Below are positions 1 to 17,743 of a stretch of 64,000 nt of DNA, in pieces; within the stretch, counting starts at the first letter, position 1, and each line of letters starts with the position of its first letter. The DNA is from Paracoccaceae bacterium (GTDB taxonomy: Bacteria; Pseudomonadota; Alphaproteobacteria; Rhodobacterales; Rhodobacteraceae). A program made the position numbers and the translations under genes. A model generated the notes under the pieces. The model searched no databases. It was given only the letters and a program-made list of their open reading frames with translations, and had not been told where the DNA came from. Location: positions 1-64,000 of the forward strand of contig JASBTX010000003.1 in NCBI GenBank assembly GCA_030148225.1, given 5' to 3'.

Positions 1-1
1 C

Positions 2-130
2 AATGAGGTCGAACGCCTATTCCGGAGGCTCAAGGGCTATCGTCGCATCTTCTCGCGCTTCGAAAAGCTCGATGTCATGTACCGCGCATTCCTGAACTTC
101 GCTCTCATCGTCGATATGATTAAGTGTTAA
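2..130 (+). CDS. IS5-family transposase, C-terminal end (cut by window edge)
   Basis: The open frame entering from the left edge encodes 42 residues and stops with TAA at 128-130. It contains NEVERLFRRLKGYRRIFSRF followed by a hydrophobic tail, which matches the C-terminus of IS5-group DDE transposases: the E of the DDE triad sits in an R-x-F-x-RLK context. The stop codon overlaps TGTTAACAGGCCCT, which resembles the terminal inverted repeat of such elements, so the IS probably ends near 138. The 5' part lies outside the window, so whether the IS is intact cannot be seen. Confidence 0.75.
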   Translation, partial: NEVERLFRRLKGYRRIFSRFEKLDVMYRAFLNFALIVDMIKC

Positions 131-144
131 CAGGCCCTAATATG

Positions 145-176
145 AAAAAAAGGACAGCAATTTAATGCTGTCCTTC
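145..176 (-). terminator. Rho-independent terminator of the lipoprotein gene
   Basis: AAGGACAGCA (150-159) pairs perfectly with TGCTGTCCTT (166-175) around a 6-nt loop. Read on the minus strand, the stem is followed by a run of T (complement of the A run at 145-151). It lies 34 bp after the stop of the minus-strand lipoprotein gene. Confidence 0.85.
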
Positions 177-209
177 ATATCACCGTGAAACATCATTAAA
201 AAATATTGT

Positions 210-566
210 TTAACAACCCTTCGAGTCCATGACGTCTTGAATTGCCAAAACTCTACCCTTTGCTTCACCATATTCTTTTTGTTCTTCTGAATTACCATCC
301 ATCATCAGGAGAGCAGGTGCGAATAGGAACCATGCCACTACCTCTGCTGTCTTATCATCTCGATATGATTTTTCGATCGCAGCAGTCATATCTGCTAGTT
401 CACGTTCTGCTTCTCTATTCTCAGAACGTAATGACTTACATGACATCCGTTCATATTTACCTGTTGGAACGTAAGCAGCATTTACTTCATTTGCTGTCTT
501 AGCATTAGAGCAAGCACTAAGTCCAAGTGCTGAAACAATTAAAACAACAACTGATTTTTTCATCAT
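210..566 (-). CDS. Small predicted lipoprotein
   Basis: This is a 118-residue protein. It starts with a lysine-containing n-region and a hydrophobic stretch, and has a lipobox (LSAC, Cys19), so it is predicted to be cleaved by signal peptidase II and anchored to a membrane. The mature part contains a short central charged helix (about residues 45-70), a hydrophobic patch WFLFAPALLMM and a C-terminal Cys. The start ATGATG is preceded by GGAG at good spacing. Similar small lipoproteins occur on prophages and islands, but I recognise no specific function. It is a single-gene unit with its own terminator, between an IS end and the integrase of element A. Codon use is AT-rich. Confidence 0.75.
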   Translation of the reverse strand: MMKKSVVVLIVSALGLSACSNAKTANEVNAAYVPTGKYERMSCKSLRSENREAERELADMTAAIEKSYRDDKTAEVVAWFLFAPALLMMDGNSEEQKEYGEAKGRVLAIQDVMDSKGC

Positions 567-701
567 ATCTTTAACTCCGAGTCTAATACTGAGACAAGAT
601 AAACATTTTCTATTATGGATTACAATCTTAACTTTACTGTGTGAAAGAACACATACAATCTATCAAAAATTGTATATATTTTTGATATACGATTTATATA
701 T

Positions 702-1907
702 CTACTCACCAAATGATTGGATATTTTCTGCCAATTCACCACTCAGTGGGAGATGTTTAGCATAGAACCTTTCAATCTGTTCAACACTGGTTCCAGCATT
801 CTTCGCAAGATTGTAGATATTCACCTTGCCCTTACTGTTGATGATCCGCATACAAATTGCTGTATGCCTCAATGAATACATTGTGTGGTTTTGATCTGTA
901 TAAACATCATCTCTTAACTTCAACTTATCCAAGGTTGCCTTGAACAATCTTTGAATAGCACCTGATACAGTTTGACGATTTGTATGTTCTGGATAGAAGA
1001 TGTAATCCTCTTTATCATGTATTGGATATCTTTTTAATATCCTTTCATAAACAGTCACAGCAGCAGGCATTGTATTTGCTTGCCTGTATCCGGTCTTACC
1101 ATCTCTTATTGTAAGTATTAATCTTCTTGGATCATTAGCAACTGTTACATCACTATGTTTAATACTGTATAATTCAGTCACTGTTGGTCTTACAAAACTA
1201 TGTGTAAGGAACAAACATAGATCATAAAATTCTTCATCTACATTCCACCATTTATGTGAAAATCTACCATCCAGTTCTTTGATACCCTCCATCAACTTTT
1301 GATAGGCATCATCATCCTTACTCACTAATGGATGGAACCTGAAGAATGGTCTTGGGTTATCTTTTTGTTTTGTTCTTGGTGTTGCTGGAATGAGATCGAT
1401 TACACCATCTTCTCTGGCAGTTTTTAATACATTCCTGAATGCTGCCATTAAGGTGTTCTTTGTTGAACCTGATAAGTTCTTCTTCTTACTCAACCAGTTT
1501 AGATAACTCTCATAGTGACGAGTTTTAAGATGCCTAACATCCTCATCACCAAAGTAATCCAATAATCCCCAATCTCTGTTTTGGATACTGAAATTCATAG
1601 AATGCTCATAACCCTTTGATAAATCCCCTCTCATCACTTTCTTACGAAGTGAGTTGAGATAACGAAGGGCAAAGTGTTTAAATGTATATTCTGTTTCGAC
1701 TAAAGGTTGGTTTCTTAAGATACTATTGGAGAGATCAATTGCTGCTTCTCTTGCCTGTATCACATTATCAAATCCAGTAGATTTAACTAAGTATTTCTTC
1801 TTCTTACTATCCCACAATCTAACATACCAAAAGTTAGATCCATTCACTTTGTAGATGGATAACCCTTTGTAGATTTTTACTGCTGATGGTAACTTTGAAT
1901 TAACCAT
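702..1907 (-). CDS. Tyrosine recombinase (integrase) of element A
   Basis: This 401-residue site-specific recombinase is predicted to integrate and excise element A at the tRNA-Asn 3' end. The N-terminal part (about 1-70) looks like an arm-binding domain, followed by a core-binding domain (about 70-190) and the catalytic domain. Visible catalytic residues are Arg240 (FVRPT), Lys271 (DGKTG), His341 and Arg347 (HTMYSLRH) and the nucleophile Tyr382 (RFYAKH). The usual second His of the LGH box is not obvious; the equivalent stretch reads LAKNAGTS. The start lies about 97 bp from the att copy at 2005-2050, with GTTATAA repeats between. It is AT-rich and unrelated at a glance to the integrase of element B, so the two elements are different families that share a target. 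Confidence 0.92.
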   Translation of the reverse strand: MVNSKLPSAVKIYKGLSIYKVNGSNFWYVRLWDSKKKKYLVKSTGFDNVIQAREAAIDLSNSILRNQPLVETEYTFKHFALRYLNSLRKKVMRGDLSKGYEHSMNFSIQNRDWGLLDYFGDEDVRHLKTRHYESYLNWLSKKKNLSGSTKNTLMAAFRNVLKTAREDGVIDLIPATPRTKQKDNPRPFFRFHPLVSKDDDAYQKLMEGIKELDGRFSHKWWNVDEEFYDLCLFLTHSFVRPTVTELYSIKHSDVTVANDPRRLILTIRDGKTGYRQANTMPAAVTVYERILKRYPIHDKEDYIFYPEHTNRQTVSGAIQRLFKATLDKLKLRDDVYTDQNHTMYSLRHTAICMRIINSKGKVNIYNLAKNAGTSVEQIERFYAKHLPLSGELAENIQSFGE

Positions 1908-1944
1908 AAAAACCCTTTAAAAACAGATAGATGCTCCAACAAAA

Positions 1945-2006
1945 GTTATAAAGTTTTGTTATAAATTACCTTATAACATATTGTAAGTAAATAGAAACAT
2001 TATAAC
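1945..2006. repeat. GTTATAA repeats beside att (possible integrase arm sites, element A)
   Basis: GTTATAAA occurs at 1945-1952 and 1958-1965, and the reverse complement TTATAAC at 1971-1977 and 2000-2006. The last copy overlaps the first bases of the att core. Four copies between an integrase gene and its att suggest arm-type binding sites for integrase or excisionase. The stretch 1908-2004 holds nothing else. Confidence 0.5.
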
Positions 2007-2050
2007 TGTTAATCAATTGGTCGTAGGTTCGATCCCTACCGCCGGAGCCA
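2005..2050 (+). other. Attachment site: 46-bp tRNA-Asn 3' fragment (junction of elements A and B)
   Basis: The 46 bases from ACTGTTAATC to GCCGGAGCCA are the anticodon loop, variable region, T-arm and acceptor 3' half of a tRNA-Asn (anticodon GTT), ending in CCA. The 5' half is absent, so this is not a functional tRNA gene. The identical 46 bases recur at 17698-17743. It marks the right end of element A and the left end of element B. Confidence 0.9.
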
Positions 2051-2200: not shown

Positions 2201-3052
2201 TCAAACGCCAATGCTTTCCAGCCATGATTGCCAAAGCACTTGCTCCGAACACTTCACACGTTCACCATCAGTACGATGCTGTGAAAGCGACTTCAAAACC
2301 CTTTGTTCCATGGCGTGAGCGCTTACCTCGCTTTCCCAACGCTGCTGAAACTTGGCGTTCCACTGCTCGTGAACAACCTCGACCGGAATGTGACAGTTCA
2401 CCTGCTTGAGTCTTTCATTGACATCTATCGTGTGTCCGATTTTCCAGATGTCGGACGATCCAAACCTAAAGGCGTAGGTGAATGAAGGCCGGTCAACGTC
2501 CCTGCTGGATTCTGCGCTCCATGATTTGGGTTTCGGACCGGTTGTCGGGCCCTTCGCACCCAAAGCCTGATCGAGGAGCTTGGCATTTTTCAGAAACTGG
2601 ATTTCAGGCAGTTCGACCCCGGCATTTTTCAACTTAAGAACGGCGTTCGCATCGACTTCAGAAAGGGCAACTGCTTGCGAAGTCGCGTGGTAGGGCAATT
2701 GCTCTTGCAGTACGTCAAGAAGCAAGGGCTGAGGAGTGAATTGCCACGCTTCAACCATTGGGATCGCTTTTGGCCAACGGAACTGGCCGGACTCGTCATA
2801 ATCTTGTGGGCCACGGGCATCATCCCCGATGACGTCCAATGTCTCTACTGGAATGCGGCCAATCTCGGCCATGCCCAAGAGTCGACCACGCATGGGTTCA
2901 GGGGTGGGTTCACGAAGTGTCCCAACAATCACGATACGGTCGCCTGGCGAGGACTCTCTAAGGAGTCGATCCCTGTTTCCTTCTAGGTTGAATGTGATGA
3001 TTGGCCACCGCTTCGGGTCGAAGCCCCAAACACGGGTGATGAAAATCTTCAT
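2201..3052 (-). CDS. PUA-like (EVE-like) plus GIY-YIG (T5orf172-type) protein
   Basis: This 283-residue protein appears to have two parts. Residues 1 to about 80 (SSPGDRIVIVG, then RGRLLGMAEIGRIP) resemble the PUA-like fold of EVE/ASCH domains, some of which bind modified bases. Residues about 190-283 carry YAFRFGSSDIWKIGHT and a following NERLKQVN, the pattern of the T5orf172 branch of GIY-YIG nucleases (Y, then WKIG, then R). Fusions of base-sensing domains with nuclease domains are typical of modification-dependent restriction. It is the last gene of a five-gene operon, and its start overlaps the stop of the HNH gene by 4 bp (3049-3052). The nuclease call is fairly safe, the N-terminal call tentative. 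Confidence 0.65.
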   Translation of the reverse strand: MKIFITRVWGFDPKRWPIITFNLEGNRDRLLRESSPGDRIVIVGTLREPTPEPMRGRLLGMAEIGRIPVETLDVIGDDARGPQDYDESGQFRWPKAIPMVEAWQFTPQPLLLDVLQEQLPYHATSQAVALSEVDANAVLKLKNAGVELPEIQFLKNAKLLDQALGAKGPTTGPKPKSWSAESSRDVDRPSFTYAFRFGSSDIWKIGHTIDVNERLKQVNCHIPVEVVHEQWNAKFQQRWESEVSAHAMEQRVLKSLSQHRTDGERVKCSEQVLWQSWLESIGV

Positions 3053-3753
3053 GGTGCCCAGATGACCTCATACGCTAGATACTCGCTTAGGACACCCCGC
3101 ACCAAGACGCTCCCGGCGCCGACTGCCATGAACCTGTATCGACCACTTTGGACGTCCAACCAACCACCAGAAAACGGCGGCTCCCCTGCAACCATTCGCT
3201 GCATCGCTCGACTACCCACCTCTGGCCAAACTTCTGTATCAGGCACATCTTCAAAATGGTCCCGCTGCTCCTTCGCTAAGCTTTCCAAAGGCATCACCAT
3301 GAAGTGGTCAGGCTCTTTGAGCTGAGGTTCATTCAACTCAAAGGCGGCGTGGCATCTGGCGAGCTTCAAGACTACATTTCGGACCCGGTCTTCTTCTGAT
3401 TCCCAAACCAATACCTCGCCACCGCCGATGGTCTTTGATTGCTTCTTGGCACGTTCAATACGGTTCTTGAGAGCCGCGCCACCCGCGAGAATCCGCTTCA
3501 CCTTTTCACGTGCCAACCTGCTCGGGTCGGTCGATCCGTGGATTACGCATTCGACGAAGCAGGCCAAATACTCCTCGTCCGCGGAAAAGCCCTCATTGCA
3601 GATTGCACAAGCTGGAAGAACCGGCAAATTCGTTGGGTATGGTTCGTCTAGGAGTATTTTGGATGGTGCATGATCTCGAGTTTCGGTGGAGCCACCACAA
3701 TGGACGCAGAAGCCCTCCTGCCTTTGATCTCCATAGTTCTTGAGTTGGTCCAT
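3049..3753 (-). CDS. HNH-type zinc-finger endonuclease-like protein
   Basis: This 234-residue protein has a zinc-finger HNH core in its first 70 residues: CVHCG (Cys16, Cys19), RDHAPSK (with Asp27-His28) and a second knuckle CAIC (Cys49, Cys52) followed by Asn53 and DEEY. This arrangement is shared by HNH nucleases of mobile and defence loci. The remainder (71-234) contains a coiled-coil-like charged segment (about 80-110) and a beta-rich tail that I do not recognise. It lies 2 bp after the vsr stop and overlaps the GIY-YIG gene, so the three are probably translated together. A DNA-cutting role is inferred from the motif. Confidence 0.7.
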   Translation of the reverse strand: MDQLKNYGDQRQEGFCVHCGGSTETRDHAPSKILLDEPYPTNLPVLPACAICNEGFSADEEYLACFVECVIHGSTDPSRLAREKVKRILAGGAALKNRIERAKKQSKTIGGGEVLVWESEEDRVRNVVLKLARCHAAFELNEPQLKEPDHFMVMPLESLAKEQRDHFEDVPDTEVWPEVGSRAMQRMVAGEPPFSGGWLDVQSGRYRFMAVGAGSVLVRGVLSEYLAYEVIWAP

Positions 3754-3755
3754 AA

Positions 3756-4187
3756 CTATTCCTTTCGCCGAAATTCCTGTTCTTGAACAATTTGGCGAAG
3801 GGCGTCACCGAGGCCTTCCGTCGTCTTCAGTTCGCACTCCCAAAATACCATCACTTTCCAGCCAAACGCGCGAAGGGTTTCATCTTTTTCTGCGTCACGC
3901 CGCACATTTTTTTCAAGCTTCGGCCTCCAATACTTCAGGTTGGACGCCGGCAATCGCCCGGCTTTGCATCCGCTGTGCTGGTGCCAAAAGCACCCGCGGA
4001 CCTGAATGGCCAACTTTTGCCGCGGGAACACGATATCCGGTCGACCAGGGAGGTCATTTCGGCAAACGCGGAAGCGCAGACCTTCCCGATGCAATGCCGA
4101 ACGGAGCCGCATTTCTGGTTTTGTGTCCCGACCCCTTATGCGGGACATGTTGCGCGACCTCTGTTCCTTTGTGATCCTGTCTGGCAT
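3756..4187 (-). CDS. vsr: Very-short-patch-repair (Vsr) endonuclease
   Basis: This 143-residue protein is of normal Vsr length. Vsr nicks DNA at T:G mismatches that arise when 5-methylcytosine deaminates, and is usually found beside a cytosine methyltransferase, as here (dcm-like gene at 7260). Visible family residues with E. coli numbering are Glu25 (TKPEMR), Asp51 (LPGRPDIVFP), Cys66 and His69 (GCFWHQH) and the downstream WECEL. Residue 64, normally His in the HGCFWH motif, is Arg here. I chose the internal ATG (MPDRITKEQRS), the conventional Vsr N-terminus. It lies 8 bp after the helicase stop, whereas the longer frame to 4229 would overlap the helicase. Confidence 0.88.
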   Translation of the reverse strand: MPDRITKEQRSRNMSRIRGRDTKPEMRLRSALHREGLRFRVCRNDLPGRPDIVFPRQKLAIQVRGCFWHQHSGCKAGRLPASNLKYWRPKLEKNVRRDAEKDETLRAFGWKVMVFWECELKTTEGLGDALRQIVQEQEFRRKE

Positions 4188-4195
4188 TTTCAATC

Positions 4196-5590
4196 CTAGG
4201 GAATCCGGTTGGACCTGAGAAGGCCACACATTTCATCTTGCGACAGTTGAGAAACGGCGTCTCCGGCACCTTCATCCCCAAGCAGGCTGCGTGCGAGCGC
4301 CGATTTCCGCTCCAGGGCCGTCAAGATTGCTTCTTCTATGGTGTCGGCCGCGACAAGACGGAGATAGGTCACGGGCTCAGTCTGTCCGATCCGGTGATTG
4401 CGGTCCTGGCTTTGGGCGTAGTGATCGTAGCGCCAGGATAAAGACTCATAGATTGTGTAACTTGCGGCCGTGAGCGTGAAACCTGTCCCCGCCGCTGCCG
4501 GGTTGGCGATCAAAACGCGGACATTGGGGTCGCACTGGAAACTGGCTGCAATCTCTTGGCGCTCGTCAGTTGGGGTTCCGCCATAGATCGCGACCGAACC
4601 CGGAATCCTCTCCAACAGGGTCTCAATCGTTCGAATGTAATTCGACCACAGGATGACCTTTCGGGTCGGAACTGAAAGAATGTCCTCGATGATCCCATCG
4701 AGAGCATCGAACTTGGCGGGCGCTCCTTTTGCCTCCGGAAAAATCAGCGCTGGGTTGCTCGCCAATTGGATTAGGCGGGTCAGCTTTGCCAACGCTGTCG
4801 TCGCGTATGCACGGTACTGCTCGCCGTTCATGGCCTCAATCTCACAGACCATTTCGTCGCGCATCTCATCGTACAATCGGCGCTGCCACGATGGGAGTTC
4901 AACACGTACGTCAACAAAAGACTTTTCAGGCAAGTCCAAGCATTGTTCTTTGGTGCGGCGAAGGACCACCCTGTCTATCGTATCCTTTGCGAAGTTCGCC
5001 TGCGGGTCATCGTCAAGGCGTGCCTTGAATGACTCCAGCGACCCCAGGGAGCCCTTTCCTGGTTCGATGATTTCCACCTGAGTGAAAAGGTCGGTCGCTG
5101 TGTTGGTGACCGGCGTTCCTGATAGCAGCCAACGGAAGATGCAATGTGGGGCCACCGTCCGCGCGGCCGCCGAGGTTTGAGATTTCCAATTCTTCGCTGC
5201 GTGGGACTCATCCAGAACCAGTGCCGTTCGTTGGCGCTGTGCAAGTGCCAGAAGTGATGTCGTCTCTGCGCGAGCCGTTTCGTAGCTTGTAACAACAACC
5301 GCCGCCTTGGACTCCCGAAAAGTAGCGCGACGCTTCTTGGGTGCCCCCTCCGCAACGTCTACTGTTAGTTCCGGTGCAAATTTTGCGAACTCGGCTACCC
5401 AGTTGCGTTTAAGCGAGTTGGGACAAACAACAAGCAACTTGTCAGCACGACCTTTGTCTAAAAGCCGGTTAAATGCCTCAATTGCGACGAATGTCTTTCC
5501 TAGTCCCTGCTCGAAGGCAAGAAGGCCCGCACCGCGCTGAGTAAGGAACTCGACTCCCTCAATTTGATGGTTAAGAAGCTCGAATCCCAA
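4196..5590 (-). CDS. SNF2-family DEAD/DEAH-box helicase/translocase
   Basis: This 464-residue superfamily-2 ATPase of the SNF2 type probably translocates along double-stranded DNA. Motifs in order: Q-like start LLNHQIEGVEF (residues 6-16), Walker A GLGKT (29-33), DESH (127-130), SGTP motif III (157-160), then the second RecA lobe with a GTGFTL motif V-like stretch and motif VI QSQDRNHRIGQT (about 395-406). The length is a bare helicase core with no long extra domains. The start is TTG at 5588-5590, one base after the stop of the ParB-like gene, which implies coupling. In a nuclease/methylase operon it most likely remodels or translocates DNA for cleavage. Confidence 0.88.
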   Translation of the reverse strand: MGFELLNHQIEGVEFLTQRGAGLLAFEQGLGKTFVAIEAFNRLLDKGRADKLLVVCPNSLKRNWVAEFAKFAPELTVDVAEGAPKKRRATFRESKAAVVVTSYETARAETTSLLALAQRQRTALVLDESHAAKNWKSQTSAAARTVAPHCIFRWLLSGTPVTNTATDLFTQVEIIEPGKGSLGSLESFKARLDDDPQANFAKDTIDRVVLRRTKEQCLDLPEKSFVDVRVELPSWQRRLYDEMRDEMVCEIEAMNGEQYRAYATTALAKLTRLIQLASNPALIFPEAKGAPAKFDALDGIIEDILSVPTRKVILWSNYIRTIETLLERIPGSVAIYGGTPTDERQEIAASFQCDPNVRVLIANPAAAGTGFTLTAASYTIYESLSWRYDHYAQSQDRNHRIGQTEPVTYLRLVAADTIEEAILTALERKSALARSLLGDEGAGDAVSQLSQDEMCGLLRSNRIP

Positions 5591-5591
5591 A

Positions 5592-6836
5592 TCAATTCCC
5601 GCCGTGGTCTGTGTGCTGGCCTACTAGTCCGTCAAAGTATGAATAAGCGTCACGGAACTCCTCAATTTCCGAAGGCTCCAAGTCCAACACGTCAGCCCTA
5701 CTGGCTTTGTTGAGGGTCCTGGTAGCCTTTTTGAGCGCAAGGCGATACGGATGGACTCCGTCGTGAACCTTGTCTTCGATCAAGTCGATCGTCTGTTGAA
5801 GGCTTGCAATGTCATCATCGTCAAATCCATCTTCGCCACGATCGATTGCACGCCGGACAAGTTGCGGCATCGCTGATATTTTCGCTTTGGGATGACTGCT
5901 TTTGTCTTGGGTCTGTTGCGCCAGTTTGTTGGCGATATGCTTCTCGCCTGATTTTAGTTGCGCCCACGCATCCGGATCGTCGTGAAATTCCTTTAGGAAT
6001 CGGGCATCGCGATATTCTTTGAATACGTCATTCCGTACCATGTCGAAGACTTCTTCGCGCAACTCATCGTAGGCCCCATTTTCAAAGTCGCGCAATTGCG
6101 ATCCGATGACGCGCGCCTTGCTCAGCTCCTCCAGTGTACTGAATTTTTCCGCAGCCAATTTCCGCGGGTTCGGCTCGCTGTCGACATGCTCGATAAACTT
6201 CAGGGCAAATTCGTAGGCACCTTTAAGCCTTGAAACCCACGAGCCGGTCTTTCCCATATTTTCCGCCAGAGTGGCCTGGTTCATTAAGGGAGGGTGCCCA
6301 GGCCGGCCTTCGACGGTCTCGTAGATAAATTTGGCTTCAATGTAACGGCCCCAGGCCCGCACGCCGGTGCCGCGTACGTGGATACCGGCCAAAAGCACCG
6401 CCACGTCCCGTTCGGAAAAGTTTTGCGGAAGGACTTTTGCCTGTACTTGCTTAAATTCGCCCTCCTTTTTTCCGCTAGTAAATTTTCGGTCCAGTTCGCG
6501 AAGGATCGTGACTCGGGTCGCACCTTCGAGGACCAAGTATTTCCCTGTGCTTGTACGCTGCACATATATCGCCTGCATTTGGCCAATATCTTGAATTGAT
6601 TTCCTTAGACCATCGTAGCCAGGAGAAATCCGAAGCGCCTCCTCCAGATCCACCTCTGATGAGAAGCCTTCCATGAGTGATGTTTGGAGTCGCGGGTTGT
6701 CCGCCCAGAGTGCAACATCATCATGGACGTCGAGTGGCATTTCCCGAAGCTCCCACTCCTTGTTACCAATTTTCTCATAGAGAATCCTCCCGTCCGCCGT
6801 CGGAAGACCCTCCAGTAGTTCGCCTTGTTTTGCCAT
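5592..6836 (-). CDS. ParB/Srx-fold DNA-binding protein, first gene of the nuclease operon
   Basis: This 414-residue protein has a ParB-like N-terminal domain (about residues 30-130) with LRKSIQDIGQMQAIYV and VLEGATRVTILREL, the counterparts of the ParB family Q-P-I and GERR boxes. A predicted helix-turn-helix follows (LAENMGKTGSWVSRL, about 190-205). The C-terminal half is acidic and helical and unfamiliar to me. ATG at 6836 was chosen because AAGGA precedes it at good spacing. The frame stays open to 7067 but without a comparable site. It is not part of a parAB pair. ParB-like domains also occur in phage and defence proteins as CTP- or ATP-using DNA binders, and target recognition in this operon would fit. 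The exact role is unknown. Confidence 0.7.
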   Translation of the reverse strand: MAKQGELLEGLPTADGRILYEKIGNKEWELREMPLDVHDDVALWADNPRLQTSLMEGFSSEVDLEEALRISPGYDGLRKSIQDIGQMQAIYVQRTSTGKYLVLEGATRVTILRELDRKFTSGKKEGEFKQVQAKVLPQNFSERDVAVLLAGIHVRGTGVRAWGRYIEAKFIYETVEGRPGHPPLMNQATLAENMGKTGSWVSRLKGAYEFALKFIEHVDSEPNPRKLAAEKFSTLEELSKARVIGSQLRDFENGAYDELREEVFDMVRNDVFKEYRDARFLKEFHDDPDAWAQLKSGEKHIANKLAQQTQDKSSHPKAKISAMPQLVRRAIDRGEDGFDDDDIASLQQTIDLIEDKVHDGVHPYRLALKKATRTLNKASRADVLDLEPSEIEEFRDAYSYFDGLVGQHTDHGGN

Positions 6837-6983
6837 GTGACATTCCTTGCGTTTCTTGCCTGAGCAAGACTTAGCAACTTCAGGAACGAAAATCAAGCTT
6901 GATCTCGGTAGGCGTTTTGGGTAGTGGTCAGGTGGGCCCGAATTAGGGTTCGGAATGGAGGATTCATGCAGAGACTTGTGTAG

Positions 6984-7180
6984 CCCCGCGCCAAGCCACG
7001 AGGTTTGCGGGGAGACTAACGGACAAGGCCGACCTGCGATAAACGCGGTCGGCCCCCGAAGTGGCAAGCAACCGGATGTATCAGTTGCAGCCCTTGTGCA
7101 CTAGGATATATGTCACTGAGACATCCGGACTTCAACCTTAAACCCCTGAAAGTGGGCGGCTTCTTGTCGCCCACTTTTTT
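6984..7180 (+). ncRNA. Candidate structured RNA between the two divergent units
   Basis: This non-coding stretch contains consecutive perfect hairpins. CCCCGC (6984-6989) pairs with GCGGGG (7007-7012). GGCCGACC (7027-7034) pairs with GGTCGGCC (7047-7054), extended by GCG/CGC around an ATAAA loop. CCGGATGT (7072-7079) pairs with ACATCCGG (7121-7128), enclosing CAGT/ACTG. An intrinsic terminator follows at 7150-7180 with its T tract on the plus strand. The density of stems with a terminator suggests a plus-strand RNA of roughly 200-300 nt. No known RNA family was recognised, and no clear promoter was identified. Confidence 0.45.
7150..7180 (+). terminator. Rho-independent terminator upstream of the methyltransferase
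   Basis: AAGTGGGCG (7150-7158) pairs with CGCCCACTT (7168-7176) around a 9-nt loop and is followed by TTTT. It points in the plus direction, yet no plus-strand protein gene precedes it, which supports a transcript arising between 6840 and 7000. Confidence 0.8.
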
Positions 7181-7259
7181 GTTTCAATAAATTCAAAGCC
7201 GAGATATTGTGGCCGCGCGCGCCTGCGCCAAAAGATATTGACAAACAAAAAGAACGAGC

Positions 7260-8486
7260 ATGCCAGGTGTCACGCTGCACAAACGGACAACGCGACTTGC
7301 CGACGGACTTCGGTGCGTTGACCTGTTTGCGGGTGCTGGCGGTCTCGCCGTAGGTTTCCGCGCGGCTGGTTGGAGTATCGCCTGCGGCAACGACATGGAT
7401 GCGGGTGCATCGGCGACTTTTCGGTTGAATTTCCCCGAGGCATCGTTCTTCGAAGGCCCGATCTCGGGCGTCCGCGGCGTGGACATGCTCACCGAAGCGG
7501 CGGTTTCTGTGGGTGGGTTGGACTGCCTGATCGGCGGCCCACCCTGCCAGTCATTCAGCCACAACAATCACAAGAGGAACGCGGTTGATGACCGCGCCAG
7601 GCTCTTTGAACGGTATCTTTCGATCGTCGGCACTATGCGACCCAAGACGATTGTGATGGAGAATGTGCCAGGAATTCTCTCGATTGACGGTGGATCGGTG
7701 GTTGACGAAATCACAGACGGACTAAAGGGCCTGGGCTACAACACGCCTTTCGTAAAGGTACTTTCCGCGGAGGAATTTGGGACGCCGCAGGTGCGACGAC
7801 GAGCTTTCATAGTCGCCAGCCGATTTGGTCCCTCCGAGGAACTCTTGCCAGCCGCCACCCACTGGTCACCTCGTTTTTCCCATGTAGGCTATCCGAAATC
7901 GCGACCGGCCGGGGCAACCAAACAACCTGTCACTGTTTGGCAGGCTATAGGCGATTTGCCCGGTTTGAATGGCGAACATGGGTCGCCAGAAGTGACTAGA
8001 GACTGGAAACGCGCGACGACGGCATATCAAAGAAATGCCCAAGCAGGTGCCCCACTTATCTACAATCACCTGGGCCATAGGTTGACCGAAGTTAATTTGG
8101 CCCGTGTCGTCCATATTCCACCCGGCGGCAATTGGAGGGATGTCCCACGTGAATTGCTGCCTGCGGGAATGCGTCGAGCCAAGCTGACCGACCACACTAA
8201 GAGATACGGTCGTCTTTGCAAGGATGGCTTTGCTTCCACAATTCTTACGAAGTGTGATCCGCATTGGGGTGCCTATATTCACCCGGTCGAAGACAGAACG
8301 ATCACGATTAGGGAGGCCGCCAGGCTGCAAGGATTTCCGGACAGATTCCGCTTTGCCGGAAGCAGCATTGGGCCTCTATACGAACAGGTGGGAAACGCCG
8401 TACCTGTCCAACTTGCTCAAGCAATTGGCGTTGCAGTGCACGATCACCTACATCGGCACGACCTGGGCATTTCCGAAGCCGCGTAA
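7260..8486 (+). CDS. DNA (cytosine-5)-methyltransferase
   Basis: This 408-residue enzyme transfers a methyl group from S-adenosylmethionine to C5 of cytosine in a specific DNA site. Motif I DLFAGAGGL (21-29) binds SAM. Motif IV GGPPCQSFS (92-100) carries the catalytic Cys96. Motif VI ENV is at 134-136, motif VIII QVRRR at 177-181, and motif X (EQVGNAVP) lies near residue 380. The target-recognition region lies between about 190 and 330. Length is normal for a monospecific Dcm-type enzyme. It is divergent from the ParB-SNF2-Vsr-HNH-GIY operon and is presumably its protective partner, since Vsr normally accompanies such enzymes. The start at 7260 is the first ATG in frame with a weak purine-rich site before it. 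The recognition sequence cannot be read from the protein. Confidence 0.93.
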   Translation: MPGVTLHKRTTRLADGLRCVDLFAGAGGLAVGFRAAGWSIACGNDMDAGASATFRLNFPEASFFEGPISGVRGVDMLTEAAVSVGGLDCLIGGPPCQSFSHNNHKRNAVDDRARLFERYLSIVGTMRPKTIVMENVPGILSIDGGSVVDEITDGLKGLGYNTPFVKVLSAEEFGTPQVRRRAFIVASRFGPSEELLPAATHWSPRFSHVGYPKSRPAGATKQPVTVWQAIGDLPGLNGEHGSPEVTRDWKRATTAYQRNAQAGAPLIYNHLGHRLTEVNLARVVHIPPGGNWRDVPRELLPAGMRRAKLTDHTKRYGRLCKDGFASTILTKCDPHWGAYIHPVEDRTITIREAARLQGFPDRFRFAGSSIGPLYEQVGNAVPVQLAQAIGVAVHDHLHRHDLGISEAA

Positions 8487-8549: not shown

Positions 8550-8873
8550 TTAACCGTCCTGAGAGATAATTTTGGCGCGAAAACCCGCCGCGTGTGCCAC
8601 CAAGGTCGCATGTCTGCACAATGCCCCGGGAATGCATCTGCGCGCTTTGTAAAGCACGTCAGAAACCAGCAGGAAAACTTTGAACCCGTTGTAACGATTC
8701 CGACTAAGGTTTGGATCGTCAGCGATCAATTGCACCAATTCGAACGCAGCACGGACGTGCGGCCGTCGGTGTCCTAGCTCTGGCTCTATTTCTTCGATGA
8801 CCTTCCTGAGCTTTTCGGCGGGCGCCACAAATTTCGCACCATCGGACAGGTTTTTTACTTCGCTCGAATCCAT
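8550..8873 (-). CDS. Hypothetical protein, 107 aa, convergent with the methyltransferase
   Basis: This is a 107-residue protein with no recognised domain. The middle (about 25-75) is predicted helical (EKLRKVIEEIEPELG and AAFELVQLIADDPN), followed by a short basic C-terminal part. The start at 8873 was chosen because AAAGGA precedes it at good spacing; the frame extends to 9002 without a better site. It faces the methyltransferase gene tail to tail with 63 bp between, and stands before the phage-like gene row. It may be cargo or a small accessory protein of the island. No function is assigned. Confidence 0.5.
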   Translation of the reverse strand: MDSSEVKNLSDGAKFVAPAEKLRKVIEEIEPELGHRRPHVRAAFELVQLIADDPNLSRNRYNGFKVFLLVSDVLYKARRCIPGALCRHATLVAHAAGFRAKIISQDG

Positions 8874-9037
8874 TGACAGGTTCCTTTTGCTACATGAAAA
8901 TTCAGCCCACGCGAATTGCGTGAACGGACCATTCAATAGGAAACTGTCAAGCCCCGGCATATCCTTATTTGGATTCCGAACGGCGTGGTAAGGAATTGGC
9001 AAGAAATCTCAACGTCACCCGGCACACTCCAGTTCAA

Positions 9038-11442: not shown

Positions 11443-11736
11443 CTACTCGAACCACGGCGTCCGTCTGACGTGATCCAGAAGCAGTTGCCGCATGGCGTCG
11501 TCAAGATCGCGGCGACTTTCGATCGACGCAAGCGCCTCGTCCCTGCGGTCCGCGCTGCGCCACGGCGTCGGTTCGGTGCCTGCTTCCATCTCGGCAATCA
11601 GCCCGGTCTCTGGCGTGTCCAGATGACCCACCGAGGATCGGCAGGTCAACGTGCCATCCTCAAAGGGCAGCGTGACGGTGCCGCAAGGAAGGATGAAGCA
11701 CAGGTTCATCTCCGCCCATTGGTCCACCTGGCTCAT
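11443..11736 (-). CDS. Hypothetical protein, 97 aa
   Basis: This 97-residue protein starts 4 bp inside the end of the terminase-like gene (11733-11736), so it is probably coupled to it. The first half is beta-like (LCFILPCGTVTLPFEDGTL), the second helical and acidic. No known motif is visible. Position directly after a small-terminase-like gene suggests a packaging or head-related helper, which is inference only. The 263 bp between its stop and the next gene (11180-11442) show no further gene. Confidence 0.5.
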   Translation of the reverse strand: MSQVDQWAEMNLCFILPCGTVTLPFEDGTLTCRSSVGHLDTPETGLIAEMEAGTEPTPWRSADRRDEALASIESRRDLDDAMRQLLLDHVRRTPWFE

Positions 11737-12311
11737 CCCTCGTCCTCCTCGGCGATGACCTCGGCGTCGATCACGTCTTCGGCGACCGTGGGCCTCACGA
11801 GCTTCGGCATTGATCCTGTGGTCGATTTGGGGGCCGAGGTGTTGTTTATCTGGACATTCGTCTGTGCCGGACCATCGGCCGACTGCATCCTGAGGGACAG
11901 AAGCTTGTTCAGGATGCGGGGTTCGACCAGGGTCGTCACAAACTTCTGGACCACCTCGAAATCGTCATCCAGTTCCGGTTCGCCCGTTTTCGGGTCGATG
12001 ACAGGCACCCACTTTCCGGTCCCCATCTCTAGCGCCGTCTGAACCACGCGATGCGTCAGTTCTTCTTCGAAGCCGGCAAGGGCCTCATCCCAAGCTTCGG
12101 CAAATTCGGGGTTCCGGTCGCGTCGATCGTAGAAGGTGCGCCTGGTGATACCAGTCATGTTCGCCGCATAGGTCACATGGCCGAACTGCCGCAGATGGTG
12201 AAGGAACTCATCGCCCTTCTCGCCGTAGATTGAGCGGATGATCGGGGCCAGTTCCGACTTCTTGTGCGGGTCGGGTGCAGGCTTGATCCTGTTCATCTGC
12301 AAGATGCCCAT
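11733..12311 (-). CDS. Terminase small subunit-like HTH protein
   Basis: This 192-residue protein has an N-terminal helix-turn-helix (about residues 45-75: GHVTYAANMTGITRRTFYDR, then NPEFAEAWDEAL). This strongly resembles phage small-terminase and terminase-like HTH proteins that recognise pac or cos sites. The middle part is helical and the C-terminus is acidic and disordered. The start at 12311 is preceded by AGGA at 7 nt. It heads a row of seven further small genes. Phage satellites of the PICI type encode their own small terminase to direct helper capsids to package satellite DNA, which would explain the absence of a large terminase. It could also be a simple regulator. Confidence 0.62.
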   Translation of the reverse strand: MGILQMNRIKPAPDPHKKSELAPIIRSIYGEKGDEFLHHLRQFGHVTYAANMTGITRRTFYDRRDRNPEFAEAWDEALAGFEEELTHRVVQTALEMGTGKWVPVIDPKTGEPELDDDFEVVQKFVTTLVEPRILNKLLSLRMQSADGPAQTNVQINNTSAPKSTTGSMPKLVRPTVAEDVIDAEVIAEEDEG

Positions 12312-12856: not shown

Positions 12857-15244
12857 TCAAGTAGTGCCACCCGTCCAACTTTTCCTCGCCGCCAGGATGA
12901 TCTGCTTCATCTCCGCCGGCTTTTCGCGCTTCACCCGAAGGGCATCCCATTTGCCCCTCCGGGCAATGACGACGTAGTCCTTTTCGTTCCCCCCGGACCC
13001 AGGTTGGTTGAAGCGCCGTTGTGTCACCACCCCACCGGCTTCATCCACCAGAAATTTGAGGTTTGAAGGATAGGCGTTGCACGTCTTGTCCAGATGCTCG
13101 CGAACATCAGAAAGGCCGATGAGGTCGGCTGGCCAATCCCGAAACAGCGCTTTGAGCTCCCGGTGTTCTTCGGTTTCCATGAATTCAACCACAGACCTCT
13201 TGGCATCCGTCATAGGCGCTGGAAGACCTGGATTGAACGCCGTCAGGTCACGCTCCTGAAGGAGGCGCGCCACCGACGCGATGAATTTCGGGTCCCGCCG
13301 GGTCTGGTACAGGTCACTGTAGTAGGACGGATCACGGACCTGCTCCGGGTTGTAGGCCACTCGAATGCGCCGGTCCCGATCGTCAATCGGCAGTGCATCC
13401 ATGAAGTTTGAGAACATCAGAAATCGGCAGCAGTTGTACTGGACGGACTTGAGGCCGAACTTCGGGTTTATCTCCCGGTGTTCCTCCGTGATGACCTTTT
13501 GCAGCTTGTTCGCCTTGCGATAGCGGTCGGCACCGGAGCCTTCCCTGGTCTCGTCCACAACAAGCAGCAGCTTTTCGGAAAGCCGTTCGTTGAAACTGCT
13601 GCCCAGAACGTCACCGAGGTCAACGCCAAGCGCCGCATGACCAGCCAAGACGCGAGCAAGAACAGACGCCACCCAATTTCGTCCGACGCCACGTTTGGAG
13701 GTTATCATCAACCAGGCAGTGTGCGGCAGAACACCCGGTTCCTGAACGATGTGCGCCACCCAATCCAGGAAGTCGTCCGCGTCGTCGCCATTCGGCAATA
13801 GCCATCGAACGTGGTCTTCGAATTTTCCGGCCCGTTCAGCCCAATCAGCGGGAGCATCCCCGAACTGTAGATTGCCCCAAACGTTTACCGCCTCGCCACG
13901 CCCTTCTGGCGGGGGACAAATAGTCCCTCGCCCCGGCGCCCAGGTCATGACATCGACGGTCTTTCGGCTGCCGCCTTTGTCCCCGACCCAGACGTTGACG
14001 ACCCTCATCTCTTTTGGCTGTGCTGGCCGGCCGCGTTTCGGCGCGTCCCCCTCATCCTTGGTTTTCTCGGGCTCCAGGATCATCCTGCTTCCTGCGAAGT
14101 GCGTGGCTGCCAGTTCGACCGTGCGCCAAGCCCGTCCGCTTTTCAGATCAACGACGCCACCAGCGAGGCTGACGTATACAAGATCGCGCTTCGCTGACTT
14201 CAGGTCGATCCTGCGGACACTCAGTCTTTCGCGAAGGCTTGTTTCTCCGATTGCCCGGTCTTCTCTGCGTTCCCGTTCGACCAGCGCGGCAATCTCATCT
14301 TCATCGACGTTATCGAAGTCGTCTTCTGCACTTGGTCGCGGCACTTCTTCGCCCGCCCCGTGGTCGCGCATGATTTTATGGAGCGTTCGATACGTCACCC
14401 GCGACCCTGAATTGTCGGCGCTTAGGCTGTCCCAACGTGCGCCGATCTGCGCGCCCTGATCTGCGTAGGCTAGATCACCTGTCGACCAATCGATGAATTC
14501 CTGACGCCCACAACCGGCTGTGGCATGGTGGCAAGCCTGCATAAGCCCCAGCCAGCTATCGTGATCCTGAAAACTCTCAGGGTCCAGATGGGATAACATG
14601 TCAGCCAGTTCGCCAGGGTCATGTTCACCGCCACCCATGGAAGCCGTGGCCGCTCCGGTCTTACGTTTAACTTTCTCCAGGAACGCCTCGGGCACTTTCG
14701 GCGCACCAAGCCAGCCAAGATCCTTTTCGGCGTCACCGTCGCGCCATGCATAGGTTCTGAGCGTGTCAGGATGAATTGACCCCGGGGCCACAACCTGGCG
14801 ACCGATGCTCTTGAATTCGACACCGGGGAAATCGGCAAGGCTATCGACCACCGCGGTTTCGGCGTCCTTGACCATGTAGATGTGCAGGCCGCCCGAGCCC
14901 GTCACGACTGTGGGAAATTCGTCGGGGTCCAACCCGGTTCGCAGCACGAGCTCGACAAACGGGTCGACAGCCTGCCAAACCTGCTGGAAATTTCTTGGGT
15001 CAACATCCACCACCAGATCAGTGGCCTTGAGCCGGACACCAACATTGTCGCCAGCCTCCATGTGGTCGATCTGCTCAGTCGGCTTGTACGGTCGTTTTGT
15101 CCAGTTCCGATGGAGAGGGCTCTTGCCCCGCTTCCTGCTCTTACCGCCTAGTTGGTCCTCAGCGGCATGATTATGCAGTGGGATCAGTTTATAGCCTGCG
15201 TTGATCAGAGGTTCGAGCTGCGCCGCGTCGGTATTGGGCTTCAT
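12857..15244 (-). CDS. Bifunctional primase-polymerase and SF3-like helicase
   Basis: This 795-residue replication protein has an N-terminal archaeo-eukaryotic prim-pol domain (about 1-190) with catalytic VDVD (Asp80, Asp82), GSGGLHIY (116-123) and RQVVAPGSIHP (149-159). A PriCT-like segment follows (about 210-300). The C-terminal helicase is of the DUF5906/SF3 type, with a Walker-A-like GVGRN (519-523) and a Walker B VVDE (562-565). The Walker A lysine appears replaced by Arg522. It probably initiates satellite replication at the nearby origin-like repeat. The start at 15244 has GGAGG before it and lies one base after the stop of the upstream HTH gene. The longer frame to 15331 would overlap that gene. 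Confidence 0.85.
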   Translation of the reverse strand: MKPNTDAAQLEPLINAGYKLIPLHNHAAEDQLGGKSRKRGKSPLHRNWTKRPYKPTEQIDHMEAGDNVGVRLKATDLVVDVDPRNFQQVWQAVDPFVELVLRTGLDPDEFPTVVTGSGGLHIYMVKDAETAVVDSLADFPGVEFKSIGRQVVAPGSIHPDTLRTYAWRDGDAEKDLGWLGAPKVPEAFLEKVKRKTGAATASMGGGEHDPGELADMLSHLDPESFQDHDSWLGLMQACHHATAGCGRQEFIDWSTGDLAYADQGAQIGARWDSLSADNSGSRVTYRTLHKIMRDHGAGEEVPRPSAEDDFDNVDEDEIAALVERERREDRAIGETSLRERLSVRRIDLKSAKRDLVYVSLAGGVVDLKSGRAWRTVELAATHFAGSRMILEPEKTKDEGDAPKRGRPAQPKEMRVVNVWVGDKGGSRKTVDVMTWAPGRGTICPPPEGRGEAVNVWGNLQFGDAPADWAERAGKFEDHVRWLLPNGDDADDFLDWVAHIVQEPGVLPHTAWLMITSKRGVGRNWVASVLARVLAGHAALGVDLGDVLGSSFNERLSEKLLLVVDETREGSGADRYRKANKLQKVITEEHREINPKFGLKSVQYNCCRFLMFSNFMDALPIDDRDRRIRVAYNPEQVRDPSYYSDLYQTRRDPKFIASVARLLQERDLTAFNPGLPAPMTDAKRSVVEFMETEEHRELKALFRDWPADLIGLSDVREHLDKTCNAYPSNLKFLVDEAGGVVTQRRFNQPGSGGNEKDYVVIARRGKWDALRVKREKPAEMKQIILAARKSWTGGTT

Positions 15245-15245
15245 T

Positions 15246-15515
15246 TCAGGCCCTCCGATCGAGGTATGCCTGCACCGACTGCCTGGTGTAGAAAACCGAG
15301 CGCCCAAGCCTAGTGAACTCGGGTCCCGCATCGGGATAACGCCCGGTTGTACGCCAGCTACGATATTGTGAGAGCGTGGCTACAGTGTGGCCAGTAAGTG
15401 CGGCCACCTCCGCTGTGTTCATCAACTCATTCAATGGTGTTTCAGGGGGCGCTGACGCGCTACCTTTGGGATCAATCACGTCCACAGGGACTTGGTCATT
15501 GGTGGTATCAGGCAT
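15246..15515 (-). CDS. AlpA/excisionase-like HTH protein
   Basis: This 89-residue protein has a C-terminal winged HTH of the MerR/excisionase/AlpA type (MNTAEVAALTGHTVATLSQY, then FTRLGRSVFYTRQSVQAYLD). Such proteins act as directionality factors or as activators of satellite and P4-type elements. It is encoded directly upstream of the primase gene with a 1-base gap. The start at 15515 (MPDTTNDQ) has only a weak ribosome site; the frame continues to 15683. An internal start at MNTAEVAAL is also possible. Confidence 0.68.
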   Translation of the reverse strand: MPDTTNDQVPVDVIDPKGSASAPPETPLNELMNTAEVAALTGHTVATLSQYRSWRTTGRYPDAGPEFTRLGRSVFYTRQSVQAYLDRRA

Positions 15516-16413: not shown

Positions 16414-17556
16414 CTACTCGGTAACGCATTTCGCCGTCGTCCCAGACTGGACCAAGACCAAATCTTCCAATGCCTGTGCATGTGGTCGGAGCGCTTCGAC
16501 AAGGTGGGTCTGATGGACGTAGCCACCTGACGCACCTGGAAGGCGCTGTCCCAAAAGAAGGGCGCCCTCAGCATAGGGTACGCCAGCCGCGATCATCATG
16601 GTTCTGGAGTGGTGTCGCAAAGCGTGCGGCGATGGCACGCCTCCCCGCTTCGGTTCGATTATGTGACCAGTCGCAGAACCAGGAGAGGGCCATAACCAGG
16701 TCGAGTTCAGGGGCTCGTCTTCCTCCATGCGTGTCTTCAAAACTTCTGTCAGCCAACGGCCTGTCGGGAATGACCACGCCCCGCCTGTCTTCATGTGAGT
16801 GAAGGTCAGGATACCCGCTTCAGGATCAAAGTCCGCACGCCGAACACCGAGAAGCGAGGTTCGTCGGGCGCCCGTCAAAAGGAATGTCCGTTGCAGGTCC
16901 CGCATCAGAGGCGACATCGCTTCTGTGGCCGACCAAAAGTTGGCCACGTCCAACTCGCCGACTTCTCGCTTGGGTGTAGCTGGAACACGAATGGCGTCCA
17001 CGGGGTTCGCGCCAATCGTCTCGTCGTGCCTTCTGGCCGTATTCACAAGCGCTCGGACGGTTCGCATCACCGAAGCGCCTGTGGTCTTGCCGTGGCGCTT
17101 GGTGACCCGATCCATGAGGTCTCGGCAATCCTGGCGCGTGATGTCAGCCACAGCCCGACGCCGAAGACGGCCAAGGTAGTGGTCCATGTGATACTGATAA
17201 TTCCGGGTTGTGGCGTGGGATAGGTCCCGTTCAGCCAGATGCTCGGTCAGCGCTTCCTCCAAGGTGATGCCCGTCGACTCTGGCCCTGCTGTGGGGTCTA
17301 TGCCTGATTGGATGGTGGCCATGAGCCTTCTTGCTTCGATCCTGGCTTCCGACAAACGAACGAGATCGGTACGGCCGATCTTGACGCGAACCGTTCGGAC
17401 AAGTCGCTTGTCCCGGCGCACGTCTCCCTGACAAGCAAATGTCTTTGTCGTCTTGTGGCAGATGCAAAGAAGGCCTTTGACGTCTGTGTCACGATGGATG
17501 CCCGAGCCAAGCGGAAGGTCCCGGACACGGGCCTCGGTGAATTTGAAGATGGTCAT
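16414..17556 (-). CDS. Tyrosine recombinase (integrase) of element B
   Basis: This 380-residue integrase has an N-terminal arm-binding domain (about 1-90), a SAM-like core-binding domain (about 95-190) and a catalytic domain. Expected active-site residues are visible: Arg231/232 (TGARRTSLL), Lys256 (THMKTG), His311 and Arg314 (SPHALRHHS) and Tyr346 (SGGYVHQTH). The LGH box reads LLGQ. The start lies 141 bp from the att copy at 17698, with an AAGTACAGT pair just upstream of the start codon. Binding there could regulate its own expression. It should catalyse integration into the tRNA-Asn 3' end between the 46-bp repeats. Confidence 0.93.
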   Translation of the reverse strand: MTIFKFTEARVRDLPLGSGIHRDTDVKGLLCICHKTTKTFACQGDVRRDKRLVRTVRVKIGRTDLVRLSEARIEARRLMATIQSGIDPTAGPESTGITLEEALTEHLAERDLSHATTRNYQYHMDHYLGRLRRRAVADITRQDCRDLMDRVTKRHGKTTGASVMRTVRALVNTARRHDETIGANPVDAIRVPATPKREVGELDVANFWSATEAMSPLMRDLQRTFLLTGARRTSLLGVRRADFDPEAGILTFTHMKTGGAWSFPTGRWLTEVLKTRMEEDEPLNSTWLWPSPGSATGHIIEPKRGGVPSPHALRHHSRTMMIAAGVPYAEGALLLGQRLPGASGGYVHQTHLVEALRPHAQALEDLVLVQSGTTAKCVTE

Positions 17557-17697: not shown

Positions 17698-17743
17698 ACT
17701 GTTAATCAATTGGTCGTAGGTTCGATCCCTACCGCCGGAGCCA
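17698..17743 (+). other. Attachment site: right tRNA-Asn 3' fragment of element B
   Basis: The 46 bases are identical to 2005-2050 and comprise the tRNA-Asn 3' half from the anticodon loop to CCA. The upstream bases do not complete a tRNA, so the gene is not functional here. A tRNA-style terminator follows at 17766, which suggests this is the original chromosomal 3' flank of the tRNA gene. Confidence 0.9.

Follow-up and report, generated by a model that had tools for sequence, protein, structure and literature searches.

Analysis of a 64-kb window, the whole stretch of DNA studied and the first 64 kb of a 111.8-kb contig (C32) from a 3.5-Mb draft genome, revealed a set of six genes that is probably an anti-virus restriction system and that is carried as cargo at the end of a phage-satellite-like element. 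The locus can be read with reasonable confidence as a C5 restriction-modification (R-M) system of the NotI type rebuilt into a multi-subunit, motor-driven defense. R-M is a known kind of system; the unusual features here are a ParB-SNF2 pair joined to a NotI-type methyltransferase (MTase), an altered Vsr, and an exchangeable nuclease slot.

Gene content and organization

All six open reading frames lay between positions 2201 and 8486, five of them minus-strand and the sixth divergent, on the plus strand:

2201..3052, minus strand: GIY-YIG (MUG113/T5orf172) nuclease, 283 aa, exchangeable accessory (Pfam MUG113, 3.1e-5)
3049..3753, minus strand: HNH_5-like nuclease, 234 aa, exchangeable accessory (HNH_5 in relatives; invariant Cys/DH/CxxCN)
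3756..4187, minus strand: Vsr-like PD-(D/E)XK nuclease (Vsr profile, 1.8e-27; TIGR00632, 2.1e-43; PDB 1cw0, 3.4e-29)
4196..5590, minus strand: SNF2-family dsDNA translocase, helicase core only, 464 aa (Pfam SNF2, 7.5e-37)
5592..6836, minus strand: ParB-like protein, 414 aa, ATG at 6836 (PHROG ParB-like, 3.5e-6)
7260..8486, plus strand: C5-cytosine DNA methyltransferase, NotI-partner type by sequence, 408 aa (Pfam DNA_methylase, 6.7e-59)

Transcription of the minus-strand genes runs from the ParB-like gene through SNF2, Vsr, and the HNH-like gene to the GIY-YIG gene, with spacers of 1 bp (ParB/SNF2), 8 bp (SNF2/Vsr), and 2 bp (Vsr/HNH) and a 4-bp overlap of HNH and GIY-YIG. The ParB start was set at the ATG at 6836, after an AAGGA-type ribosome site, rather than at the long-ORF start, and the Vsr start was set at 4187 because the TIGR00632 match begins there. 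The tight operon and divergent C5-MTase described in an earlier note on this DNA were all present as claimed, and its SNF2, Vsr, C5 methylase, and GIY-YIG assignments were borne out by the profile matches listed above. Its ParB-like call agreed with a weak PHROG profile match and with a weak resemblance of the center of the protein to ParB/Noc DNA-binding domains. Its HNH call was likewise upheld via relatives of the window copy, itself invisible to Pfam.

Recurrence and conserved core

Recurring linkage in other genomes was the deciding test named in the earlier note, and the linkage was found again in five other loci and one fragment. Searches with the ParB-like protein recovered a viral contig (L005/L010), three loci (L006, L007, and L008) and a solitary ParB gene (L009) in 84,980 species genomes, and L020 in genome G969; the fragment L012, with SNF2-Vsr-HNH, was reached via an SNF2 search. 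All six genes were maintained in unchanged order in L006 (Litoreibacter) with 76-92% identity. The order MTase, ParB, SNF2, Vsr was followed in L010 by a one-transmembrane (1-TM) effector-like protein (PADLOC, 1.6e-4) and then a GIY-YIG gene, in L008 by an EVE-HNH protein (HNH_2, 6.4e-11), and in L007, where Vsr is frame-shifted, by a tRNA-Arg gene. The divergent MTase/ParB arrangement was common to the window, L006, L007, L008, and L010; in L020 the R-M half is rearranged, with SNF2-ParB divergent from NotI (5.7e-97)-MTase-Vsr. The core therefore consists of the MTase, the ParB-like protein, SNF2, and Vsr, with HNH and GIY-YIG outside it. The five-gene unit of the earlier note was accordingly real in its linkage but not uniform, as its HNH and GIY-YIG members are swappable and also occur outside the system.

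Distance matrices of the core genes across six loci were correlated at r 0.90-0.94 for every pair of the four genes, and such correlations were matched by only 2-9 of 720 relabellings; given the few loci (six) and a possible shared carrier history, this co-divergence signifies joint inheritance rather than joint function. Compared with L006, dN/dS was low (0.02-0.08) in the four genes with finite dS; dS itself was about 2 or more, and infinite in most comparisons, such that the low dN alone is meaningful. The recurrence of the same gene order, the small protein change set against saturated or near-saturated synonymous change, and the co-divergence of the core together indicate more than chance.

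The system is rare. A close ParB homolog was identified in four overlapping samples (289-398 genomes) only in the genome of the window itself, in G969, and in G176, where it is solitary. A Rhizobium ParB-SNF2-ParB locus at first resembled a relative and was rejected as a different, distant system. SNF2 alone was rejected as a marker of the system, since its distant matches in plasmids and phages number in the thousands; of 34 further viral loci encoding SNF2 relatives, none displayed a significant match to the remaining five proteins.

Carrier element and insertion sites

The earlier note had described the locus as cargo of a mobile element, which was confirmed, and 46-bp att repeats made the bounds of a 15.7-kb element exact:

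2005..2050, plus strand: left att site, 3' end of tRNA-Asn, 46-bp exact repeat
11733..12311, minus strand: small-terminase-like protein (PHROG terminase small subunit, 1e-9)
12857..15331, minus strand: Prim-Pol/PriCT_2/DUF5906 replication protein (Pfam; PHROG primase, 5e-65)
16414..17556, minus strand: tyrosine integrase with arm-binding domain (Pfam Arm-DNA-bind_3, 1.3e-6; PHROG integrase, 1.9e-35)
17698..17743, plus strand: right att site, the same 46-bp exact repeat

The element also encodes a weak HTH_17 protein and an ORF with a tail-tip domain, and no capsid, portal, or large terminase was detected among its ORFs scanned. An intact tRNA-Asn(gtt) gene is located on contig C31 of the same genome (G000). 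The integrase, tRNA att repeats, own primase, and few or no structural genes would place the element among P4/PICI-like satellites. Phage satellites are already known to harbor defense genes (PMC9122126).

Among the relatives, L006 is flanked by a 46-bp repeat of 91% identity and a tRNA-Thr, L008 lies near tRNA-Thr, L007 is next to tRNA-Arg, and L020 is next to tRNA-Gly. Every chromosomal relative carrying the core sits at a tRNA gene, and the accessory genes vary; both would suit a chance gathering, at tRNA hotspots, of defense genes that have no joint function. Such a gathering is nevertheless highly improbable, since core order is fixed and spacing tight in five loci and the core genes co-diverge. 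At the level of the accessory genes, the varied downstream nucleases could be independent cargo at a hotspot.

Methyltransferase and NotI ancestry

The divergent gene is a C5-MTase as the earlier note had it, although it proved not to be anonymous, since by sequence kinship it is of the type that partners NotI-family enzymes. Among near plasmid homologs of the MTase (43-50% identity), the next gene was a NotI-family restriction endonuclease, identified as such by its annotation, in 5/5 cases examined. These plasmid neighbors, together with the NotI of L020, suggest that the locus descends from a NotI-type R-M system or has recombined with one. No match to the NotI family (PF12183) was found among the six window proteins or the other element ORFs scanned.

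NotI cuts at GCGGCCGC and its relative EagI at CGGCCG. The kinship with NotI partners makes a NotI- or EagI-like site containing GGCC the most natural candidate and, by analogy, the probable target of the MTase. The deficit of CGGCCG in host DNA (observed/expected 0.43) was weighed as a pointer to the site of methylation and rejected, as other GC-only palindromes ranged from 0.22 to 1.19.

An altered Vsr

Vsr is the nuclease present in all six loci, although frame-shifted in one (L007). Where F-V-H-GCFWH is usual, the window protein has QVRGCFWH. In the 29 background Vsr proteins, read from alphaproteobacterial genomes, the residue preceding GCFWH/GCYWH is His or, in fewer cases, Asn, Gln, or Asp, and the stretch is mostly F-V-H; Arg at the E. 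coli H64 position, present in the window, was found in 0/29. The Q-V-R form was identified in the window, L006, L007, L008, L010, and the fragment L012, in every case within the ParB-SNF2 operon, whereas the L020 Vsr, adjoining NotI and the MTase, has F-V-H. Among complete loci, Q-V-R thus occurred in 5/5 without NotI and F-V-H in the single locus with NotI. Positions retained are Asp65 (E. coli D51), F81, W82, and H83, as well as the putative zinc ligands. By the alignment, the PD-(D/E)XK triad would become D, Q, R.

Because its active-site stretch is altered, the window protein is probably not an ordinary mismatch-repair Vsr; it may have been repurposed or its catalysis changed. It differs from the Vsr of the E. 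coli Dcm-Vsr repair pair, whose T63/H64 stretch is not matched (Arg at H64). A second explanation is that the locus is the remnant of a NotI-type R-M system with a V gene, the MTase and Vsr being an old dcm-vsr-like pair in which Vsr would repair T:G mismatches after 5mC deamination, ParB and SNF2 would serve in regulation or partition, and HNH and GIY-YIG would be separate defense genes. C5-MTase genes do lie near most other sampled Vsr genes, and the HNH and GIY-YIG relatives are found alone in other contexts. However, the window Vsr belongs to the ParB-SNF2 operon rather than to the MTase, the His of F-V-H is lost, and the MTase co-diverges with ParB and SNF2 across loci, which makes a remnant rather improbable.

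Accessory nucleases

A Pfam scan of the window HNH-like protein gave no HNH match, while 3/8 aligned relatives matched HNH_5 (best 6.4e-4), and C16/C19, D27-H28, and C49/C52-N53 were invariant in the eight aligned proteins. The HNH slot is replaced in L008 (a VcaM4I-like EVE-HNH protein), L010 (the 1-TM effector-like protein), and L020 (NotI), and holds nothing in L007. The L008 protein matched PDB 6yex at 4.6e-73, an entry that, judging by titles, we assign to the VcaM4I study (PMC7897488). If a 5mC-dependent EVE-HNH enzyme operates beside a C5-MTase in L008, its site would need to differ from that of the MTase.

HNH relatives were also identified in a three-gene HNH-Vsr-MTase operon (L064), 3' of phage or satellite integrases (L025 and L026), and in other plasmid loci; GIY-YIG relatives occurred beside AbiE-type genes (L028) and at L029. 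Their occurrence outside the system marks both nucleases as plug-in parts. Arg214 and Glu249 were invariant in five GIY-YIG relatives. The "PUA" half proposed for the GIY-YIG protein found no support from any test run and is unproven: its N-terminal half gave no match in profile searches of PDB and Pfam or when profiles were compared with the EVE-HNH protein, and an AlphaFold model from three relatives at pLDDT 37 allows no claim of fold. By analogy with described EVE-GIY-YIG fusions (PMC7641849), this half may be a base reader.

ParB-like protein and SNF2 motor

The ParB-like protein comprises a putative ParB/Srx-type N-terminal part, a putative ParB/Noc-like HTH domain, and a helical C-terminal part, with an EGxxR element invariant in seven relatives (alignment A4). 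In its AlphaFold model the N-terminus is poorly modelled; residues 156-290 matched ParB/Noc chains at Z 5-5.9, weak on the tool's own scale, and Foldseek returned nothing significant (best ParB match 6sdk, E 0.16). The SNF2 protein is an intact motor with no extra domains, its motifs GLGKT, DESH, and QSQDRNHRIGQ being invariant in five aligned sequences, and its nearest solved structure is the Sulfolobus SNF2/Rad54 duplex translocase 1z63 (1.1e-36). In the simplest case, ParB would serve SNF2 as a clamp or as a loader at specific sites.

The best phage-family match of SNF2 was the helicase family phrog_62 (6.4e-120, inside an 1881-residue profile). Along with the satellite nature of the carrier and the repeated presence of ParB-like and SNF2-methylase domains in polyvalent proteins (PMC5512222), this match favors a third explanation, in which the MTase, SNF2, and ParB modify or shield the element's own DNA on entry as a DarB/DdrB-like protective or anti-restriction module and the nucleases are unrelated cargo. 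Polyvalent proteins, however, have an adenine MTase and fused domains as opposed to the NotI-type C5-MTase of the window; in addition, the nuclease genes lie 1-8 bp from ParB/SNF2 and one relative (L020) retains NotI. A protective module is consequently unlikely.

Proposed mechanism and implications

Counted in favor of the reading as an R-M-type defense were the divergent layout, co-divergence, NotI-adjoining MTase homologs, SNF2 motifs, the VcaM4I relative in the L008 slot, the L064 operon, and the satellite-like carrier; counted against it were the rarity of the system, the variety of downstream nucleases, the separate site that the L008 EVE-HNH would require, and L007, where the frame-shifted Vsr is the only nuclease 3' of SNF2. 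In the proposed mechanism, the C5-MTase would mark the DNA of both host and element at its target site, and the ParB-like protein and SNF2 would assemble into a conserved ATP-driven sensing and translocating part. ParB would load either as a clamp gated by NTP or by binding DNA at specific sites, and SNF2 would move along the duplex checking for the mark. On unmarked incoming DNA, such as that of a phage, ParB/SNF2 would activate or deliver a nuclease that would restrict it. In gene content the nuclease is interchangeable between relatives, with HNH and GIY-YIG here and a VcaM4I-type EVE-HNH, NotI-family enzyme, or TM effector elsewhere; Vsr would be the core cutter or else a repair enzyme that has diverged. 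A stronger version, a new class of ATP-dependent restriction in which an NTP-gated ParB-type clamp and the SNF2 translocase discriminate, the NotI-type MTase marks, the Q-V-R Vsr cuts, and plug-in nucleases are added, is put forward tentatively as a lesser possibility.

The locus suggests that a two-gene type II R-M system (MTase and NotI) may turn into a motor-driven, multi-subunit defense with interchangeable nucleases, L020 being an apparent surviving intermediate of that change. Should ParB work as a sliding clamp, a chromosome-segregation fold would have been reused for patrolling foreign DNA; should Vsr do the cutting, a restriction role would have been taken on by a repair enzyme. The known defense cargo of alphaproteobacterial phage-satellite-like elements is also extended.

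Comparison with known systems

No named system was matched in PADLOC or NCBIfam, in agreement with the earlier note, and no description of the SNF2, ParB, Vsr, and methyltransferase combination was found in the literature searched, which is not proof of novelty. The window SNF2 resembles DrmD, ZorD, and DpdE of DISARM, Zorya, and Dpd, yet is a bare motor. As the earlier note had stated for DrmA/B and DISARM, DrmA/B/C were not found among the six proteins, nor were ZorA/B or Dpd partners (PADLOC; best 25 families for SNF2 and MTase). For Zorya, the sole match was the SNF2 domain of ZorD, and the ZorA/ZorB membrane motor was absent among the six proteins.

DarB/DdrB-type polyvalent proteins share SNF2 and ParB-like domains and residence in mobile elements with the window (PMC5512222) but have fused domains and an adenine MTase, compared to separate genes, a C5-MTase, and nuclease partners in the window. 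A relative of the modification-dependent EVE-HNH nucleases (VcaM4I) fills the slot in L008, whereas the window has no EVE-HNH. NotI-family type II R-M systems (C5-MTase and PF12183 endonuclease) have their MTase subfamily in common with the window, and L020 keeps NotI by the MTase and Vsr; the window differs in lacking the NotI enzyme and in its added ParB, SNF2, and exchangeable nucleases.

The closest described system is the MORC/paraMORC R-M operon, which encodes SWI2/SNF2, Dcm, Vsr, HNH, and a GHKL ATPase (Iyer et al., 2008; PMC2292703), a study in which ParB goes unmentioned. A further locus (L065) resembled the MORC type on sequence inspection (MTase-Vsr-SNF2-putative GHKL). No GHKL family member was found in the six genes or neighboring element ORFs scanned. 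The neighborhood of SNF2 helicase, C5-MTase, Vsr, and HNH is shared between the MORC-type operons and the window, while in place of the GHKL ATPase the window has a ParB-like protein.

Neighborhood of the carrier element

The left att site of the carrier element was directly bordered by AT-rich DNA (GC 34-38%) holding a second tyrosine integrase. This DNA is apparently a second element, inserted in tandem into the same tRNA-Asn gene as the carrier and seemingly split by the assembly between window 1-2004 and positions 1-5221 of C31, the contig of the same draft genome (G000) bearing the intact tRNA-Asn(gtt). Transposase-like sequence was present at the extreme contig start. Within the carrier, the ORF adjoining the MTase gene matched no family.

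702-1907: second tyrosine integrase, within the AT-rich DNA of window 1-2004
8550-9002: 150-aa ORF of the carrier element

Related genes in other genomes

Additional conflict genes were identified close to two relatives of the system, L020 and L008.

L020:18533-19447: NTase-conflict protein (match 1.1e-115)
L008:18332-19024: HEPN RiboL-PSP protein (match 3e-9)

A ParB homologue (about 50% identity) stood alone in genome G176 (loci L009/L003) among housekeeping genes, with neither SNF2 nor MTase genes in its vicinity. A compact HNH-Vsr-C5-MTase operon was found in locus L064 (7406-9983), where the HNH protein, 47% identical to that of the window, is the obvious candidate for the restriction enzyme.

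More distantly, loci L004, L013, and L021 from Rhizobium, Bradyrhizobium, and one relative of the window's family encoded SNF2 proteins at 30-37% identity close to two ParB-like genes. A radical SAM gene and a gene for an ATP-binding protein adjoined these, and L004 and L013 additionally had one for a DGQHR protein; this locus has the appearance of a conflict system in its own right, as yet without a name.
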